From Candidatus Aenigmatarchaeota archaeon (GTDB lineage: Archaea; Aenigmatarchaeota; Aenigmatarchaeia; QMZP01; JAFGSV01): 40,243 bases of DNA. The notes under the pieces are model-generated. The model did no database searches, was not told the origin of the DNA, and was given only the letters and a program-made list of their open reading frames with translations. Shown piece after piece: positions 2,213 through 26,254 of this stretch (positions are counted from its first letter, which is position 1; every line of letters starts with the position of its first letter). The stretch is taken from the NCBI GenBank assembly GCA_016934325.1, contig JAFGSV010000032.1:1-40243 (forward strand), in the 5' to 3' direction. The position numbers were made by a program, and so were the translations under genes.

Positions 2213-2959
2213 ATGCATGCAGTGGTATTGGCAGGAGGGTTTGCGAGGAGGCTGTGGCCCCTCACCAAGGATTTGCCCAAGCCACTGCTTTCCGTCGGCG
2301 GCAGGCCGATAATAGGGTACATCCTGGACAAGCTCGGCGAGATCGAGGAGATAGACAGGATATTCATATCCGTGAACAAGAAGTTCGAGCCCCATTTCCA
2401 GGAGTGGCTGCAGGGAAGCGATTTCATCAAACCCATAGAAATCGTGGCCGAGCCTTCCACGCGCGAGGATGAGAAGCTCGGGGCGGTCGGCGCCCTGGGA
2501 TTCCTGCTGCAGGAGAAAGGAGTCAGCGACGACCTCATAGTGGTCGCCGGGGACAACCTCTTCGATTTCGACATGAAGCAGTTCCTCAGGACGAACGGCG
2601 AGAACTCCCCTGTTGTGGCGCTCTTCGACATGGAGGAGAAGGAGGCGATCAGGAACAGGTACGGAGTCGTGGTCCTCGACGAGCGGAATGTCATAAAGGA
2701 TTTCCAGGAGAAGCCCGCGGATCCGGCGAGCACCCTCGTAAGCACAGGATGCTACTTCTTCCCTAAGAAGGCCGTGCAGATGATTTACGAGTACCTGAAG
2801 GGGCAGAACAACGCTGACGCCCCCGGGTTCTTCATATCGTGGCTGGCCAAGCAGATGGCAGTCCAGGGATTCGTCTTCGACGGCGACAGCAGATGGTTCG
2901 ACATAGGGAGCCGCGAGAGCCTCGAGGAGGCAAAACGAATATTCAGGCAGAAGGGCTAG
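2213..2959 (+). CDS. sugar-phosphate nucleotidyltransferase (NDP-sugar pyrophosphorylase)
   Basis: MHAVVLAGGFARRLWPLTKDLPKPLLSVGGRPIIGYILDKL; VVAGDNLFDFDM; DFQEKP; WFDIGS. Confidence 0.9.
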   Translation: MHAVVLAGGFARRLWPLTKDLPKPLLSVGGRPIIGYILDKLGEIEEIDRIFISVNKKFEPHFQEWLQGSDFIKPIEIVAEPSTREDEKLGAVGALGFLLQEKGVSDDLIVVAGDNLFDFDMKQFLRTNGENSPVVALFDMEEKEAIRNRYGVVVLDERNVIKDFQEKPADPASTLVSTGCYFFPKKAVQMIYEYLKGQNNADAPGFFISWLAKQMAVQGFVFDGDSRWFDIGSRESLEEAKRIFRQKG

Positions 2960-3358: not shown

Positions 3359-4204
3359 TCACTTGGCATCTGCGATCTCCATGCTGATCTCGACAGAAGG
3401 GACGGAATGTGTAAGCCGGCCGACCGATATCCAGTCGACGCCGAGCTTCGCTATGCTTTCTATGTTATCCTCGTCAATGCCGCCCGAGACCTCGATTATG
3501 CTGCGCTTTCCTATGATCCCGACGGCCTTCTCGATGTCGCCGTTGGGCATGTTGTCCAGCATTATGACGTCAGCCCCCGCTTCCAGGGCGCCCCTGACCT
3601 CATCGATGCTGCAGGCCTCGACCTCGACCCTCTTGCCCGTTTCCTTGGCCTTCATCACCGCGGCTTTCATGCCTGCCAGCTTGATATGATTGTCCTTGAT
3701 CAGAATGGCATCGTAGAGGCCCGCTCTGTGGTTGCCGCCGCCGCCCGTCCTGACCGCGTACTTCTCAAGAACGCGCAGTCCCGGGGTGGTCTTCCTGGTG
3801 TCGAGCAGCTTGACATCGTAGCCGCGCAGGATGTCAGCGTACTTCTTCGTTGTCGTTGAGATCCCGCTCATCCTCTGCAGAAAATTCAGGGCAGTCCTCT
3901 CGCCCGCGAGCAGGGCCCTGGCGTCTCCCTGGACCTCAGCGATGACCTGGCCCGCCTCGGCCGTGTCGCCGTCATATACCTTCCCAACGAATTCCGCATC
4001 GGTGTCCAGCGCCTTGAAGACCGCCTCGGCCACACGGAGCCCGCATACGATACAATTTTCCTTGGCGATAAGGCAAGCCTTCGCCCTCTTTCTTGGCGGT
4101 ATGATAGCATCCGTGGTGATATCCCCGGAGCCGATGTCCTCTTCGAGCGCATCGCCGGCTATCCGCTTCAATTCCCTCTCATCCAATCCGGTCATAATGA
4201 TCAC
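3359..4204 (-). CDS. nadC: nicotinate-nucleotide pyrophosphorylase (carboxylating)
   Basis: DIGSGDITTDAIIP...NFLQRMSGISTTTKKYADIL...LLDTRKTTPGLRVLEKYAVRTGGGGNHRAGLYDAILIKDNHI. Confidence 0.95.
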   Translation of the reverse strand: MIIMTGLDERELKRIAGDALEEDIGSGDITTDAIIPPRKRAKACLIAKENCIVCGLRVAEAVFKALDTDAEFVGKVYDGDTAEAGQVIAEVQGDARALLAGERTALNFLQRMSGISTTTKKYADILRGYDVKLLDTRKTTPGLRVLEKYAVRTGGGGNHRAGLYDAILIKDNHIKLAGMKAAVMKAKETGKRVEVEACSIDEVRGALEAGADVIMLDNMPNGDIEKAVGIIGKRSIIEVSGGIDEDNIESIAKLGVDWISVGRLTHSVPSVEISMEIADAK

Positions 4205-4935
4205 GGCTCGAATATCGCGGGCATCTCCCTCTTGTGCCCCGTCTTCTTAAGCATCTTGCTGACCTTCTCAAGCCTGGCGGGATCGATGCCGCCTGTTTCG
4301 TGCCTCTCGATGGCTTTGAGGGTCTCGTCAAGCTCATCATAGCTCATGCCGATCTCTCCCTCATCCGTCTGGCCATGCCATAGCCCCGCAGACGGGGGCT
4401 TTGCTATAATCCCTTCAGGGACACCGATCATTCTTGCCATTTCCCTTACCTCTGATTTGTACAGACCGGCTATCGGCAGCAGGTCGACGCCCCCGTCGCC
4501 GTATTTCGTGTAATACCCTACCATGAGCTCGGACTTGTTGCCGGTCCCGAGCACCAGATAGTTGTTTAGGTTGGCGAAATAGTACAGGGTGACCATCCTG
4601 AGCCTTGGCTTGAGGTTGGCTTCTGCGATCCCCTGGCCTGGAGGAAGGCTCTGCCTGAGCCTGTCGAAAATTGGCTTTATGTCCACGAACTCCGTCCTTA
4701 TCCCGAATCCCTCGGCGAGCTCCATGGCATGGTCGGCATCCTGGTCAGCCGAGCCGCAAGGCATTATCACGCCTATAACGTTCTCCCCGAGGGCCTTCTT
4801 CGCAAGGGCGGCAACGAGGGAGGAATCCACCCCCCCGCTCAGCCCGATCACAGCCCCCTTGGCCCCGGCCTCTTCGACCTTTCCCTTGAGCCATTCGACG
4901 ATCCTGTCCTTGACCTCGTTCATGCCTTTAGCCAT
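4201..4935 (-). CDS. nadE: NAD+ synthetase (NH3-dependent type)
   Basis: VIGLSGGVDSSLVAALAKKALG...LVLGTGNKSELMVGYYTKYGDGGVDLLPIAGLYKSEV; overlaps the nadC start. Confidence 0.95.
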   Translation of the reverse strand: MAKGMNEVKDRIVEWLKGKVEEAGAKGAVIGLSGGVDSSLVAALAKKALGENVIGVIMPCGSADQDADHAMELAEGFGIRTEFVDIKPIFDRLRQSLPPGQGIAEANLKPRLRMVTLYYFANLNNYLVLGTGNKSELMVGYYTKYGDGGVDLLPIAGLYKSEVREMARMIGVPEGIIAKPPSAGLWHGQTDEGEIGMSYDELDETLKAIERHETGGIDPARLEKVSKMLKKTGHKREMPAIFEP

Positions 4936-6254
4936 CCCGCGTCACCTGCGATGTGATATTCTATGCCCCTGCCCTTGAAGTCTATGTCGCGCCATATTTC
5001 CGTGTTGTCGAGCACCAGCTTACAGCTCCGAAGGGCCGAGAGGATGACGTTATGCGGGGTGAACCTGTAATGCTGATGGTCCGCGACGATGAGCACGGCA
5101 TCGAACTCTTGCAGTCCGGCCGGGAAATCGAAGGAATCCGCCCCGGCAATGGTCTTGATCTCCTCCTTGCTGTAGTATGGGTCATTGACCTTGACTTCCA
5201 CACCCAGCTCGGCCAGCCTCTTGGCGAGCTTGATCGTCGGCGAGAGTATCGAGACCTTGATGTCGCCCTTGTAAGCAAGCCCGAGGATCCCGACCCTCTT
5301 GGCTCCCCTCTTGACGAGGTTATCCGCCACGATGTTGGGCTGCTTCTCATCGGATTCGATCGTCTCCTTGAGTACTGTCAGATGCTCGGGCCTGCTCGCC
5401 CCGAGCAGCACGTACTGGCTCGAAAGCGGGATGCAGTAGCCCCCGGTCCCGAAGCTCGGATGGAACGTCCCCACGTTCCATTTGGTCCCTACAAGCCTTA
5501 GGACTTCCTTCATGTCCACATCTGGGTATGCGAGGGAAAGCTGGTTCGCGAGCGTGATGTCCATGTGCCTGTAGGCGTTCTCGATGCTCTTCACCATCTC
5601 CGCATGCTTGTGGTCCGGCGAGGGGACGAGGTTCTCGCACACGATGGAGAGCACACACCTCATCATCTCCGTGGTCTTGCCTGTAGTGCCGCCGAAGACC
5701 CTTGGCAGCTTCTTAAGGCTCTTCTCGGGGGAGACGAACCAGTCCCTCCTCGGGGCGACGCCGAACATGATGTCCCTGCCGACCTCGATGCCCGCGTCCT
5801 TAAGCAAGGGTAGTATTATCTTGTCGCTCCTCCCGGGGGTCAGGGTCGATTCCACAATTATTAGTGGAGGTTCATAGTTCTTTATCTTCTTCAGCCCCGT
5901 CAGCTTCTTCGTCACATCGATCAGAATATCGTCGTAGGGCTTCCCCTCCTTCTCGGTTGGGATGCTCACGAAATGCACCGCGATGTCAGGCTTCATGGCT
6001 TCATGCCAGTCCGTGGTTGATTTCATCAGCCCGGATTTCACCAGCCCCCCGATTTCGAAGCCAAGCCAGTACTCGAGGTTGTCGATCGGTATCTCGCCCC
6101 TGTTTATCGCCCTTACCTTCTCTTTGTCCACATCCAATCCCACGCAACGTACTCCGTTGTGCGCGAAGTTCGCCATCGTGGTGAAGCCTATGAACCCCGT
6201 GCCCCACACGGCGATACGCTTCTCTCCGCTCAGGAGCTTATCCTTTATGCCCAT
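4920..6254 (-). CDS. nucleotide-sugar dehydrogenase (UDP-glucose/GDP-mannose dehydrogenase family; UDP-GlcNAc or UDP-ManNAc dehydrogenase-like)
   Basis: IAVWGTGFIGFTTMANFAHNGVRCVGLDVD; STLTPGRSDKIILPLL; GTGGYCIPLSSQYVL (catalytic Cys); GILGLAYKGDI. Confidence 0.88.
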   Translation of the reverse strand: MGIKDKLLSGEKRIAVWGTGFIGFTTMANFAHNGVRCVGLDVDKEKVRAINRGEIPIDNLEYWLGFEIGGLVKSGLMKSTTDWHEAMKPDIAVHFVSIPTEKEGKPYDDILIDVTKKLTGLKKIKNYEPPLIIVESTLTPGRSDKIILPLLKDAGIEVGRDIMFGVAPRRDWFVSPEKSLKKLPRVFGGTTGKTTEMMRCVLSIVCENLVPSPDHKHAEMVKSIENAYRHMDITLANQLSLAYPDVDMKEVLRLVGTKWNVGTFHPSFGTGGYCIPLSSQYVLLGASRPEHLTVLKETIESDEKQPNIVADNLVKRGAKRVGILGLAYKGDIKVSILSPTIKLAKRLAELGVEVKVNDPYYSKEEIKTIAGADSFDFPAGLQEFDAVLIVADHQHYRFTPHNVILSALRSCKLVLDNTEIWRDIDFKGRGIEYHIAGDAGWLKA

Positions 6255-6296
6255 TACTGCACCTTGGAATAGAATTCGTCCAGCACCTTTAAATAA

Positions 6297-7136
6297 TTAT
6301 TTATTACTAGGTAATACTTTAGTATTACTTATCTTCCTCAAATCGTCGCTCGAGTGTATGTTCACATAGGTCCCCGGTACCATGCACCCGTGAAGCTTCC
6401 CTTCTGATATAAGCCTGGGAAAGAGGTTGGTCTGCAGCACCCAATTGACGTTGCCCTTGGGGATGTACTCGAACACGCTTGTATCATACATTCCTATGAA
6501 GGTGGAGGTGAGATACGTCTTCGGCCTCGACGGCTTCTCCTCGTAACCTATGATCTGCCCACCTGCCATCTCCACAACGCCCTGGTTCGAAACGGATCCC
6601 CTTCCCGCCTGGACAGCGAGGGTGACCGGCCCGGGGTTGGACATGTGGACCTTGGCAAGATAGTTCAGATCGAAATCGAAGAAGTTGTCGACCGGCAGGA
6701 CCAGGAAGGGCGACTTCATGTACTGCTCTGCGAGCTGCAGTGTCTTCGCGTTGCCGAGGCTTTTCTGCTCTTCTATGTATTTTATGTCGACCGCATATCT
6801 TGATCCGTTCCCAAGCAGCTTGAAGCATTCCCCGATCAGCTCGTTCCAGCCTATGATGAATATCTTCTTGAATCCCGATTTCCTCAGCGTCTCTATGTTA
6901 TGCTCGATTAGGCACCTTCCCCTGATTTTCACCAAAGGCCTCAGCCTGTCCCCTATCATCAGCTTGTCCGGGTCCCCGCCGCCGAGTATAACGGCTACCT
7001 TGTTCGCCTCCAGATACTGGTTCAGTATGCCCTCTATGGCCTCGGACCTCGACCTGATGGCCTCGCCGTCGACGATGCTGTCCAGCTTCTTAAGGACATC
7101 AGCCGAGATGGTCATGGAAATTCTGGTCTTATGCAT
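6297..7136 (-). CDS. CopG-type ribbon-helix-helix DNA-binding domain fused to a sugar nucleotidyltransferase-like domain (putative regulator)
   Basis: MHKTRISMTISADVLKKLDSIVDGEAIRSRSEAIEGILNQYLE (RHH) followed by NKVAVILGGGDPDKLMIGDRLRPLVKIRGRCLIEHNIETL...FLVLPVDNFFDFDL...GQIIGYEEKP. The ORF track opens at 7187, but ATG 7136..7134 is preferred because a TATA-like TTTAAAA and a palindrome lie just upstream. Confidence 0.88.
   Translation of the reverse strand: MHKTRISMTISADVLKKLDSIVDGEAIRSRSEAIEGILNQYLEANKVAVILGGGDPDKLMIGDRLRPLVKIRGRCLIEHNIETLRKSGFKKIFIIGWNELIGECFKLLGNGSRYAVDIKYIEEQKSLGNAKTLQLAEQYMKSPFLVLPVDNFFDFDLNYLAKVHMSNPGPVTLAVQAGRGSVSNQGVVEMAGGQIIGYEEKPSRPKTYLTSTFIGMYDTSVFEYIPKGNVNWVLQTNLFPRLISEGKLHGCMVPGTYVNIHSSDDLRKISNTKVLPSNK
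6310..6329. promoter_or_regulatory. 20-bp palindrome GGTAATACTTTAGTATTACT: putative RHH operator upstream of the 4920..6254 promoter
   Basis: GTAATACT-TT-AGTATTAC is a perfect inverted repeat; shares the GTAATA-N6-TATTAC core with 7141..7160; an extra TATTAC half-site sits at 6302..6307. Confidence 0.65.
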
Positions 7137-7140
7137 GAGA

Positions 7141-7160
7141 AGTAATATCCCGGTATTACT
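7141..7160. promoter_or_regulatory. 20-bp palindrome AGTAATATCCCGGTATTACT: putative autoregulatory operator of the RHH-nucleotidyltransferase gene
   Basis: AGTAATA-TCCCGG-TATTACT inverted repeat, between the TATA-like TTTAAAA (minus strand, about 7166..7160) and ATG 7136. Confidence 0.7.
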
Positions 7161-7253
7161 TTTAAAGCTCTCGCCCGTTTGCGCCAAGCGGCGGTTGCGA
7201 GGATGCTGTCTGTGAGCAGTTTATATAAAACCATGCTTCAAAAAGTTAATACT

Positions 7254-8546
7254 ATGAAGATATCGGTCATCGGAACGGGATACGTGGGGCTTATCACAGG
7301 CGTTTGCTTCGCTGAGCTTGGAAACCATGTCGTGCTGGTGGACGTTGTTGAAGACAAGGTCGACAAGATCAACAGGGGCATTGCGCCGATCTACGAGATG
7401 GGCCTTGACAGGATGCTGCGAAAGAACCTCGGCGCAGGCAGGGTCCACGCATCCATGGGCATCGAGAAGGCTGTGCATGACACCTCCATCACATTCATCT
7501 CGGTAGGGACCCCCTCAGGAAAGGACGGCAGCATGGACCTGGCCTACGTCAAGAAGGCCGTGGAGGAGATTGGCAGGGCCTTGAAGACAAAGGGCGCTTA
7601 TCATATCGTCGTCGTAAAATCGACCGTTCTTCCCGGGACGACCGAGGATGTCGTCATCCCCCTTCTCGAGAAGATCTCCGGGAAGAAGGCGGGGCGGGAT
7701 TTCGGGGTGGCGATGAACCCTGAATTCCTAAGAGAAAGCCTCGCGATTGAGGATTTCATGAATCCTGACAGGATAGTGGTCGGGGGGACTGACGATGAGA
7801 CCATCAAGAGGGTGTGCAGGCTCTATGACGGTTTCTCCAGTCCGGTGATCAAGACCAACCCGAGAACCGCCGAGATGATAAAGTACGCTAGCAACGCCTT
7901 CCTGGCAACCAAGATATCGTTCATCAACGAGATCGGAAACCTCTGCAAGAGGCTTGGCATCGACACATACGAAGTCGCGGATGCGATGGGCCATGACAAG
8001 AGGATCGAAAGGAGATTCCTTGACGCCGGGGAAGGTTACGGCGGCAGCTGCTTCCCCAAGGACGTGAAGGCGATCATAGCCAAATCCAGGCATTCAAAGG
8101 AGCCTCTGAAGATTTTGGAATCGGTCGATTCGGTCAACGAGGGCCAGCCCCTCAAGCTCGTCGAGCTTCTTGGAAGGAAGTTGCCGAGCCTGAGGAACAA
8201 GACGATTGCGATACTGGGCTTGGCATTCAAGCCGGGCACCGACGACATCAGGGAGGCGCCGTCCTTGAAGATAGTAGGTGCCTTGATAAAGTCGGGCGCC
8301 AAGATTAAAGCATATGACCCCCAGGCCGCTGACAATTTCATGCGGGAGTTCAAGGGGATAACCTTCAGCAGCAAACCGGGCCACGCTCTCGAGGGAGCGG
8401 ACGCATGCCTGCTGCTCACGGAGTGGCCCGAGCTGAAGGAGCTGACTGACGACGATTTCAAGAAGATGAAGAGCAAAGTAATAATAGAGGGCAGGAGGAT
8501 ACTGGACAGGAGCAAAGTAAGCGGATTCGAAGGGCTGTGCTGGTGA
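7254..8546 (+). CDS. ugd: UDP-glucose 6-dehydrogenase
   Basis: MKISVIGTGYVGLITGVCFAELG; NPEFLRESLAIEDFMNPDRIVVGG; GGSCFPKDVKA; start moved to ATG 7254, downstream of TATA-like TTTATATAAAA. Confidence 0.93.
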   Translation: MKISVIGTGYVGLITGVCFAELGNHVVLVDVVEDKVDKINRGIAPIYEMGLDRMLRKNLGAGRVHASMGIEKAVHDTSITFISVGTPSGKDGSMDLAYVKKAVEEIGRALKTKGAYHIVVVKSTVLPGTTEDVVIPLLEKISGKKAGRDFGVAMNPEFLRESLAIEDFMNPDRIVVGGTDDETIKRVCRLYDGFSSPVIKTNPRTAEMIKYASNAFLATKISFINEIGNLCKRLGIDTYEVADAMGHDKRIERRFLDAGEGYGGSCFPKDVKAIIAKSRHSKEPLKILESVDSVNEGQPLKLVELLGRKLPSLRNKTIAILGLAFKPGTDDIREAPSLKIVGALIKSGAKIKAYDPQAADNFMREFKGITFSSKPGHALEGADACLLLTEWPELKELTDDDFKKMKSKVIIEGRRILDRSKVSGFEGLCW

Positions 8547-8549
8547 TTG

Positions 8550-9395
8550 ATGATGAAGGACGAGATCGTTGGACTGGTGCCGGCCGCTGGAAGCGGCACG
8601 AGGCTGTACCCGTTCGCAAGGGCGGTGCCAAAGGAGATGTACCCCATTCTGGGCAAGGCGGTCATTGAGCACTGCGTCGAGAACCTCAAGGCCGGTGGGA
8701 TAAGCAAGATATTCATGGTCGTCGGATACCAGAAGGGGGCGCTGATGGACTACCTGGGTGACGGATCTTTCTTCGGGGTGAATGTAGCATACGTGTACCA
8801 GATGGAGAGGAAGGGCCTGGGACACGCCATCTATCAGGCGAGGAACTGGATCGACACGACGTTCGTCACCTTGCTTGGGGACTCCTTCATTGAGCCGAAG
8901 AATGAGATAAAGGAGCTGATAAGATATCACAGCGAGCAAAAGCCATTGGCGACATTGCTGCTTTTCAAGGTCGAGAACCCGAAAGGCTACGGTCTTGCGA
9001 AGCTCAGGGACATGGAAGGCGGTATGGGTCCTATCATCAGGGTGAAGGAGAAGCCGACAATGTCTCAGGCGTCCGAATTCAAGAGCGGTGGCGGCTATTA
9101 TGCCATGTGCGGGGGATACATCTTCGAGCCGGGGATATTCAAGTATATAAAACGGACGAAGCCTGGGAAGAAGGGCGAGATTCAGATAACTGACGCGATA
9201 TCTCTCGCGATGAGGAGCGGCGAGCGGGTCTTGGGCCTTGTTCTCAAGGGCAAGTATCTGGACATAGGCAAGTGGAAGACGGTCCTGCACACCGAGAAGG
9301 AGCTGCTGGGATTCCTGGACATGCAGATGCACATAAGCGACAGGGAAAGGCTGATGAAGAGGATGAAGAGGCAAGAAGAGAAGAACGGAAGATGA
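8550..9395 (+). CDS. galU: UTP--glucose-1-phosphate uridylyltransferase (GalU-like)
   Basis: [66 protein letters not shown]...[13 protein letters not shown]. Confidence 0.85.
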
Positions 9396-10339
9396 GTATG
9401 CAAACTGTTCTGGTGACTGGCGGGGCTGGATTCATAGGCTCCCACATGTGCGACAGGCTTATACGCGACAAGTTCAGGGTCATCTGCATGGACAACCTGG
9501 TGACAGGCAAGAAGGAAAATATCAGACACCTTCTCGGCAACAAGAACTTCGTTTACATGGAACATGATGTGACCAAGCCAATATGTGTCGAGGAGAAGCT
9601 GGACCACGTGCTGCATCTCGCCTCCCTGGCCAGCCCGGTCGACTACAGGCGCCATCCCATAAAGACCATAAAGGTGGGCACCCTCGGCACCCACAACGCG
9701 GTCGGGCTTGCGAAATCGAACGGTGCCAAGTTCCTGTTCGCCTCGACCTCAGAGGTATACGGGGACCCTGAGGTCAACCCTCAGCCGGAGTCCTACTGGG
9801 GGAACGTCAATCCCGTGGGGATCCGCTCGTGCTATGACGAATCGAAGCGCTGCAGCGAGGCGCTGACCATGGCATATCAAAGGGTTCACGGCATGGACAC
9901 CAAGATAGTCCGCATATTCAACACTTACGGCCCGAGGATGAGGGTCAATGACGGAAGGGTGGTGCCGGTCTTCATCACGCAGGCTCTTGATGGCAGGCCG
10001 CTCACCGTGTTCGGGGACGGGAAGCAGACCAGGAGCTTCTGCTACATAGACGACCTGATAGAGGGCATGCGCAGGTTCATGGACACGAAATACGACCACC
10101 CCGTCAATCTAGGGAACCCCTCCGAGAGGACGGTCTTGGAGCTTGCGGACCTCGTCCTGGACCTGACGAAATCCGAGTCTAAGAAGGTCTTCAAGCCGCT
10201 GCCGGAGGACGACCCCAAGAGGAGATGCCCCGATATATCCCTTGCGAACAGGCTTCTCAAGTGGAAGCCAAAGACTTCATTGCGTGATGGCCTGGCTGCA
10301 ACGATAGAGTATTTCAGGGACCCGCTCCGCAAGTCTTGA
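9392..10339 (+). CDS. NAD-dependent SDR, UDP-glucuronate decarboxylase (UDP-xylose synthase)-like
   Basis: [96 protein letters not shown]. Confidence 0.85.
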
Positions 10340-24607: not shown

Positions 24608-24802
24608 CGCAACCCACCGCCAGAATCATACGTATTTTTTAATGATTTAATTTAAGTATCGAATCCGGACGTTCAGCCCGCTCGCATGGCCGACTGGCGA
24701 ACGGGAGATGCGAGGGAGGATATGGGCGGCCGCCGGTCCGGGCGCACCGGATACGGAACGACGCGAGCATGGACTTTTAAAGATTGGGGAGGTAGTTTAT
24801 GC

Positions 24803-26254
24803 ATGAAATTCTTCATAATAAACCCGCCTTATGATATAGAACGGTACATGGGCAAGCTGAGCAAGGTGGGATGGGTCTTCCCCCCGGCGGGGCTGCTCAG
24901 CCTGGCATCGTTCCTCGAGAGCAATGGCGTGCAGGTCCGGCTCTATGACGCGCAGGTTGCCACCACGCCCCTGGTCGAGGAGATCAGGAGGTTCAGGCCG
25001 GACATGGTCGGGATAACGTGCACGACCGCGCTCGTCTACAGCATGAAGCACACGGCCAAGCTAGTCAAGGACAACTTCGACATCCCCGTCGTCGTGGGCG
25101 GGGTGCACCCGACGGTCATGCCGGATGAGACCCTCGGGGATCCCAACGTCGACTTCGTCGTCAGGGGCGAGGGAGAGATAACCACATACGAGCTGCTGCG
25201 TGCGCTCAAGACCAAGAGATACGGAAGAATCCTGGGACTATCCTATACCGCTAACGGAAAGGTGGTGCACAACCCACCGAGGCCCCTGATCAAGAACCTC
25301 GACGACCTTCCGTATCCGGCCTACCACCTCATAGAGTTCGACAAGCTGAGGTCGAGCCCCGACCTCGATTTCGGGTCTAGGATGATGGTCGTTTACGGGT
25401 CCAGGGGATGCCCCTACAACTGCGTGTTCTGCGCCAATCGGATCCTGACAAACAGGAGATGGCGGGTCAGGAGCGTGCATAACCTGATGGGGGAGATAGA
25501 CCTGCTGATCAACAAGTACGGCATCAACTTCATCATGATGGGGGATAACGATTTCACCGTGAACAGGGAATGGGCAATGGAGTTCTGCCGGGAATACATC
25601 AAGAGGGGATACAGCCATATAGGATGGGAGGCGAACGTCCGGGCCGACCAGGTCGACGACGATCTGCTTGCGCTGATGAAGAAGGCTGGCTGCAGGCTGA
25701 TATTGCTGGGTCTCGAGTCCGGCGTCCAGAGGATCCTCGACATGATGAACAAGCAGATCACGCTCGAGCAGGCCGAGACCGCCGTGAAGAAGATCAAGAA
25801 GGCTGGCATGCTTGTGAGGGCCAGCTTCATACTGGGGATGCCAACGGAGACGAGGGAGGAGAGCCTGCAGACCATAAGGTTCGCGAAGAAGCTGCCGTTG
25901 GACCAGGTCAGGTTCGCCGTTGCGACCCCTTTCCCGGGGACGGAGCTTTTCGACATGGCGAAGCAAGACGGAATGGGGGAGATAGACGACTGGACGAAGT
26001 TCAGCCTCATGGTGGGCTACACGGGGCATGACCCCGTGTACGTCCCGCATGGAAGGGCGGCCGAGGAGATCAAGGCCCTGCAGAGGAAGGCGAACCTGGA
26101 ATTCTTCCTGAGGCCGAGGATAATCTGGTCCATGGCCAAGAGGATTAGATCGTTCAGGGACGTCAAGAAGATGGCAAGGGGTCTGTACCATTTCATGAAG
26201 GCGACATTCCTCGTCGAGAGCGGGGATTCCGGGCGCATCGACCTTGCAGATTGA
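24803..26254 (+). CDS. B12-binding-domain radical SAM protein
   Basis: MKFFIINPPYDIERYMGK...FPPAGLLSLASFLESNGVQVRLYDAQ (B12-binding fold); YGSRGCPYNCVFCANR (CxxxCxxC); LLGLESGVQRILDMMNK. Start placed at ATG 24803 downstream of CTTTTAAAG. Confidence 0.9.
   Translation: MKFFIINPPYDIERYMGKLSKVGWVFPPAGLLSLASFLESNGVQVRLYDAQVATTPLVEEIRRFRPDMVGITCTTALVYSMKHTAKLVKDNFDIPVVVGGVHPTVMPDETLGDPNVDFVVRGEGEITTYELLRALKTKRYGRILGLSYTANGKVVHNPPRPLIKNLDDLPYPAYHLIEFDKLRSSPDLDFGSRMMVVYGSRGCPYNCVFCANRILTNRRWRVRSVHNLMGEIDLLINKYGINFIMMGDNDFTVNREWAMEFCREYIKRGYSHIGWEANVRADQVDDDLLALMKKAGCRLILLGLESGVQRILDMMNKQITLEQAETAVKKIKKAGMLVRASFILGMPTETREESLQTIRFAKKLPLDQVRFAVATPFPGTELFDMAKQDGMGEIDDWTKFSLMVGYTGHDPVYVPHGRAAEEIKALQRKANLEFFLRPRIIWSMAKRIRSFRDVKKMARGLYHFMKATFLVESGDSGRIDLAD

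Follow-up and report, generated by a model that had tools for sequence, protein, structure and literature searches.

NadR joins an HTH domain to an NMN adenylyltransferase, controls its own pathway and is enzymatically active. It resembles the protein described here in being a DNA-binding domain fused to a nucleotidyltransferase, but its DNA-binding part is HTH and not ribbon-helix-helix (RHH), its nucleotidyltransferase has another fold and another substrate, and it has kept its activity. An earlier note on this DNA had called NadR only a loose analogy. We agree, and two other systems are closer. BzdR is a transcription factor composed of an HTH domain and a sensor derived from shikimate kinase (PMC3602430). 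The sensor came from an enzyme that lost its activity, which is the same kind of evolutionary path as proposed here, but the DNA-binding fold and the enzyme are different, the setting is bacterial aromatic catabolism, and the case is experimentally proven. GMPPA is an inactive paralogue of GDP-mannose pyrophosphorylase that acts as a feedback inhibitor (PMC9856158; structure 7d74). It belongs to the same nucleotidyltransferase superfamily, and here too an inactive copy regulates sugar-nucleotide supply by feedback; however, GMPPA is eukaryotic and binds the active enzyme, not DNA. On the DNA-binding side, the closest relative is NikR, whose operator is GTATGA-N16-TCATAC (PMC7055735). NikR has the same RHH subtype, and many members of the fusion family share its RVTIT strand and its GTATGA/TCATAC half-site. 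The differences lie in the effector, which in NikR is a metal-binding domain whereas residues 46–279 of our protein adopt the NTP_transferase fold and not a nickel domain, and in the operator, where the NikR half-sites are far apart and those of the fusion family are 10–11 bp apart. The clade of our protein also differs from NikR in having a GTATTA half-site and a serine in the strand.

The gene lies in a window of 40,243 nucleotides (the whole stretch of DNA analysed), which comes from a draft metagenome-assembled genome of 1.24 Mb in 35 contigs that is 79% complete; its nearest named relative places the host in the Aenigmatarchaeota. It encodes an RHH–sugar nucleotidyltransferase fusion (Table 1). 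The fusion is probably an autoregulated RHH transcription factor whose dead nucleotidyltransferase domain would sense an NDP-sugar. One-component regulators with a repurposed enzyme are a known kind, and the combination of RHH with a sugar nucleotidyltransferase appears to be new; literature searches, which covered few subscription journals so that absence from them is weak evidence, found no published description of such a regulator. To our knowledge, little is known about how archaea sense the supply of glycan precursors. The family provides a concrete candidate for such a sensor, with predicted operators and predicted targets, and because members with intact and with dead sites occur in living lineages, the step from enzyme to sensor is directly testable. 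In the small-genome DPANN archaea, the fusion would be one of the few metabolic regulators that can be assigned.

Table 1. Features of the window around the fusion gene (positions in the window; L numbers are our handles for related loci).
Feature	Position	Strand	Basis
RHH–sugar nucleotidyltransferase fusion, 279 aa	6297..7136	-	translation, Pfam, AlphaFold2, 110 homologous fusions
RHH DNA-binding domain, residues 1–45	7002..7136	-	Pfam RHH_1; family N-terminal profile retrieves NikR and CopG in PDB
Nucleotidyltransferase-fold domain, residues 46–279, catalytic residues degenerate	6300..7001	-	PF00483, Foldseek, residue table
Degenerate signature loop, residues 52–71, GGGDPDKLMIGDRLRPLVKI vs GGxGTRLRPxTYEIPKPLxP	6924..6983	-	family alignments
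Predicted operator 1, GTAATATCCCGGTATTAC, after the TATA box and before the start codon of the fusion gene	7142..7159	.	motif scans; equivalent site in L005
TATA-like box TTTAAA, fusion gene	7161..7166	-	assigned by inspection
Predicted operator 2, GTAATACTTTAGTATTAC, sharing bases with the fusion gene's 3' end and preceding the promoter of the NDP-sugar dehydrogenase	6311..6328	.	conserved in L005, L006, L086, L087
Predicted third half-site, GTAATAAAT, adjoining the TATA box and spaced about 10 bp from the second	6299..6307	-	kept in four relatives
TATA-like box TTTAAA, NDP-sugar dehydrogenase operon	6288..6293	-	sequence
NDP-sugar dehydrogenase (UDP-ManNAc-dehydrogenase-like), predicted target	4920..6254	-	Pfam, NCBIfam; +1 gene in L005, L006, L086, L087
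nadE, NAD+ synthase, gene overlapping that of the dehydrogenase	4201..4935	-	NCBIfam NF010587 and TIGR00552 above cut-off
nadC-like (quinolinate phosphoribosyltransferase), gene overlapping nadE	3359..4204	-	sequence reading
Second canonical sugar nucleotidyltransferase, intact site	2213..2959	+	Pfam, NCBIfam
ugd/aglM, UDP-glucose 6-dehydrogenase, AglM/TuaD type, divergent	7254..8546	+	Pfam, NCBIfam
GalU/RmlA-type nucleotidyltransferase, intact site	8547..9395	+	Pfam, NCBIfam
NAD-dependent epimerase/dehydratase	9392..10339	+	Pfam, NCBIfam

The translation of the reading frame matches exactly the peptides quoted in the earlier note, which had given no strand; the gene is on the minus strand. 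That note had read an RHH domain at the N-terminus running directly into an NTP_transferase-like fold, and both parts of the reading are borne out. Pfam finds RHH_1 at residues 5–43 (22.4 bits; gathering score 20.5) and NTP_transferase (PF00483) at residues 48–252 (73 bits against 21.2), so that the C-terminal part belongs to this family by sequence as well as by fold. The N-terminus has the N-terminal strand, the two helices and the conserved NRS/SRS-E motif that mark the RHH superfamily, and residues D19, R30, S31 and E35 are near-invariant across the family. A search of solved structures with a profile built from 24 family N-termini retrieves NikR of E. coli (E 2.8e-7), NikR of P. horikoshii and CopG; the assignment thus does not depend on one weak Pfam match. 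The AlphaFold2 model, computed from a 60-row family alignment, has a pLDDT of 93.2 and a pTM of 0.86. It places helices at residues 12–21 and 30–44 in the RHH topology, followed after a single residue by a strand of the nucleotidyltransferase core (46–52). The RHH strand is absent from the model, as expected of a monomer prediction. Foldseek matches to RmlA, MurU, tlr0611 and GMPPA/B, with E-values of about 1e-18 to 1e-16, are confined to the nucleotidyltransferase part. Homologues with the two parts as separate genes, which the earlier note had named as a finding that would count against it, were not seen: the closest homologues (82, 64, 55 and 54% identity) and all 110 members extracted are single-ORF fusions, and this excludes a frameshift or an assembly artefact.

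The earlier note had proposed searching archaea for RHH and NTP_transferase pairs, and the architecture proved to be widespread, often with an intact active site. Among Aenigmatarchaeota, 82 of 160 genomes have matches, and most of the best ones span residues 3–270, in reading frames some 280 aa long. Full-length fusions outside this phylum also came from a profile of 23 intact-site members run against 396 archaeal genomes. We extracted 110 fusions, of which 69 are from Aenigmatarchaeota and the other 41 come from 38 genomes of archaea outside the phylum. In every one of them the RHH Glu35 and the nucleotidyltransferase Gly53 are separated by 17, 18 or 19 residues, and a spacer this constant points to a rigid junction. 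The RHH_1 model is silent on the RHH part of most fusions scanned, and many members therefore probably carry an annotation as nucleotidyltransferases and nothing more; in the host genome the model has only two matches. Two fusions occur together in some genomes (L070 and L100; L091 and L149, the latter pair from one genome). In these paralogue pairs (L070 5922-6728 and 17689-18537; L091 and L149), a TCATAC-type operator is seen at one gene and a GTATTAC-type operator at the other, as expected if the paralogues are insulated from each other. A side group (L071, L072 and L074) has an HRTSxExP N-terminus that lacks the helix-2 motif usual for the RHH and is joined to a nucleotidyltransferase of more canonical type; this N-terminus is possibly another DNA-binding variant. 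A mobile or phage origin of the fusion was rejected on the best records of a tblastn search of plasmid and phage records with an intact-site fusion: these held nucleotidyltransferases, none showed the RHH part, and the best plasmid matches start only at about residue 40–50.

The catalytic site of the window protein is degenerate. The GxGTRxxPxTxxxPK loop is lost throughout its clade, in which the PK lysine is also changed, and the first of the two metal-binding aspartates is kept (D150) while the second is replaced by N259. The protein retains E199/K201 and G128 besides D150, and D150, G128, H164 and T172 are almost invariant in the degenerate clade, though retained pocket residues do not prove that a ligand is bound. 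Across the family, the GxG, the Arg/Lys, the PK lysine and both aspartates are complete in 38 fusions and incomplete in 72, a count that is sensitive to the alignment and approximate for 'partial' members. The window protein falls inside a 28-row clade that is entirely degenerate (SH-aLRT 91), with an inner 23-row clade at 96. Changes between intact and degenerate states number at least five on well-supported branches and nine on the best tree. These counts do not give a direction, and the fact that loss is easier than gain suggests one. Between the window protein and that of L005, dN is 0.10 and dS is 1.5 (near saturation), both domains are constrained, and dN/dS of the nucleotidyltransferase domain is about 0.07. 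Low dN relative to dS together with lost catalytic residues indicates a maintained pseudoenzyme, and a decaying pseudogene is rejected on the same values.

The earlier note had proposed a role as a transcription factor, and operator-like repeats at the fusion gene and its relatives make this prediction well supported. RHH proteins characteristically recognise operators, repeated or palindromic, close to their own promoters. The pattern GTAATA-N4-10-TATTAC occurs twice in the window and in none of 100 shuffles. GTAATAC-N4-GTATTAC with up to two mismatches has only two sites in the 1.24-Mb draft genome, both at the fusion locus. A reversed control pattern has as many matches in this genome or slightly more; the weight of the predicted operators therefore comes from their position and conservation and not from rarity alone. 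Given archaeal TATA-to-start spacing, operator 1 lies about at the transcription start (the start codon is at 7136), which is where a repressor would sit. At operator 2, the half-site triplet and the TATA-like box are kept in L005, L006, L086 and L087, and in the last three they lie outside the fusion coding sequence. Other clades have TCATAC-N4-TCATAC or GTATGAT repeats at the same promoter position. Exact half-site pairs are found upstream of 37 of 106 fusions against 3 of 460 nearby genes at least two genes away (Fisher 2e-26, a descriptive value, as the motif was learnt from the same upstream regions and related sequences are not independent); about two thirds of the fusions have no exact pair upstream. 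The exact TCATAC-N4-TCATAC pattern has nine sites in eight genomes, and seven of these are at a fusion promoter, one each in seven genomes. A longer TCATAC-type pattern gave 24 sites over 158 genomes, 11 of them at fusion promoters; the others include sites upstream of fructose-1,6-bisphosphate (FBP) aldolase/phosphatase, ribose-5-phosphate isomerase B (RpiB) and GHMP kinases akin to heptose-7-phosphate kinase, and another coincides with the start of a gene for an HldE-type kinase. The reversed-pattern control is useless for TTCATAC repeats, which are nearly mirror palindromes, and a scan for sigma-70-type promoters tells nothing in an archaeon. In L150, L153, L156 and L157, operator-like TCATAC repeats precede unlinked genes for FBP aldolase/phosphatase, RpiB and heptose-kinase-like proteins. 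The off-locus sites suggest that the predicted regulon extends beyond the fusion locus.

Position 7 of the RHH strand varies with the operator type. It is threonine in all 18 GTATGA-type fusions that have threonine or serine there (two more have alanine), and serine in 10 of 11 fusions with GTATTA-type pairs. E. coli NikR has an RVTIT strand and uses GTATGA. The correlation amounts to about three changes on the tree and two independent pairs on supported branches, and a test of covariation on independent pairs, which were too few, gave no significance. The pattern is suggestive of a simple code in which the Thr/Ser strand residue would pair with one operator base.

The gene neighbourhood is one of sugar-nucleotide metabolism. 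As the earlier note had it, the reading frame is divergent from ugd and has another nucleotide-sugar dehydrogenase downstream; Pfam and NCBIfam confirm both. A ugd-like gene is divergent at –1 in 17 fusion loci, within and outside the phylum. In 72 of 100 loci scored, a gene of five common sugar-nucleotide or sugar-phosphate classes lies at most four genes away (nucleotidyltransferase, epimerase, UDP-glucose-dehydrogenase type, heptose-kinase type and phosphomannomutase-like, the last named from sequence reading). The epimerase/dehydratase of the window is possibly a UDP-glucuronate decarboxylase. Each of the dehydrogenase, nadE and nadC-like genes (3359-6254, minus strand) overlaps the next at its end, in an order that recurs in L005 and L006. 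This predicted operon would join NAD synthesis to an NAD-dependent sugar dehydrogenase, and since the dehydrogenase uses NAD+, joint control with nadE and nadC is plausible.

From these observations a mechanism can be proposed. The fusion would act as a dimer, held by the intermolecular beta ribbon that is typical of RHH proteins. Its N-terminal strand-helix-helix would bind pairs or triplets of GTAATAC/GTATTAC half-sites about 10–11 bp apart. At operator 1, within its own promoter, self-repression is the most likely effect; at operator 2, immediately before the TATA box that serves the dehydrogenase-nadE-nadC operon, binding may repress or activate. The C-terminal domain would descend from a sugar-1-phosphate nucleotidyltransferase that lost the NTP-triphosphate loop and the second metal ligand, and it may bind UDP-Glc, UDP-GlcA or a neighbouring nucleotide-sugar without turnover. 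Helix 2 of the RHH leads through one residue into the first NTP strand and from there into the former catalytic loop, and with so direct a connection a ligand could alter RHH spacing and operator affinity. Sugar-nucleotide supply would thereby feed back on transcription, presumably coupling the pools of sugar nucleotides to expression. Use of the enzyme fold as a sensor is supported indirectly, by the loss of the catalytic loop and the second metal aspartate while purifying selection on the protein persists. Both the ligand and the sign of regulation are inferences.

The protein could instead be a bifunctional trigger enzyme, whose rearranged site still makes a nucleotide-sugar while it also binds DNA. 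Such a form very probably exists in the family, to judge from the 38 members with the complete signature and aspartate pair, and the window protein keeps D150, E199/K201 and G128; but its clade has changed the GxG-T-R loop, the PK lysine and the second metal aspartate, and the same window encodes two canonical nucleotidyltransferases with intact sites. By these sequence features, a bifunctional enzyme-regulator is likely for the intact-site relatives and unlikely for the window protein.

The degraded site would also suit a constitutive RHH autorepressor in which the enzyme domain serves as a ligand-free oligomerisation scaffold, and the operator and RHH evidence needs no ligand. We hold this reading to be about as improbable as the previous one, because the nucleotidyltransferase domain is under purifying selection, with four residues almost invariant in the degenerate clade, and because loci and sites are tied to sugar-nucleotide genes. 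RHH domains are common in antitoxins, so the domain might also be a dimerisation module or a toxin–antitoxin-like part with no control of sugar genes. This is very improbable: no conserved toxin-like partner is adjacent, the commonest neighbours are sugar enzymes, the fold is PF00483 and not of the MNT/Pol-beta type, and sites also precede unlinked metabolic genes. An MNT/HEPN toxin–antitoxin pair was likewise rejected, as the fold is PF00483 and sugar enzymes stand in place of a HEPN partner. Beyond the preferred reading of the window protein as a sensor-regulator, we give roughly even chances to a wider scenario, in which archaeal sugar regulators of this kind would have begun as bifunctional RHH–nucleotidyltransferase 'trigger enzymes' and repeatedly turned into nucleotide-sugar sensors as their catalytic sites eroded, with a Thr/Ser operator code.

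Some neighbours of the fusions are themselves multi-domain proteins. In L066 (2197-4287), a neighbour of 697 aa combines a HAD phosphatase, a nucleotidyltransferase and a transketolase N domain. In L053 (8346-9890), the neighbour of a fusion from the same clade combines HAD and nucleotidyltransferase domains in 515 aa, and GmhA-HddA fusions are found nearby in L079. Together these resemble a pathway for manno-heptose nucleotides in DPANN archaea. Elsewhere in the window, a B12-binding radical SAM protein is encoded inside a glycosyltransferase-rich region (24686-26254, plus strand).
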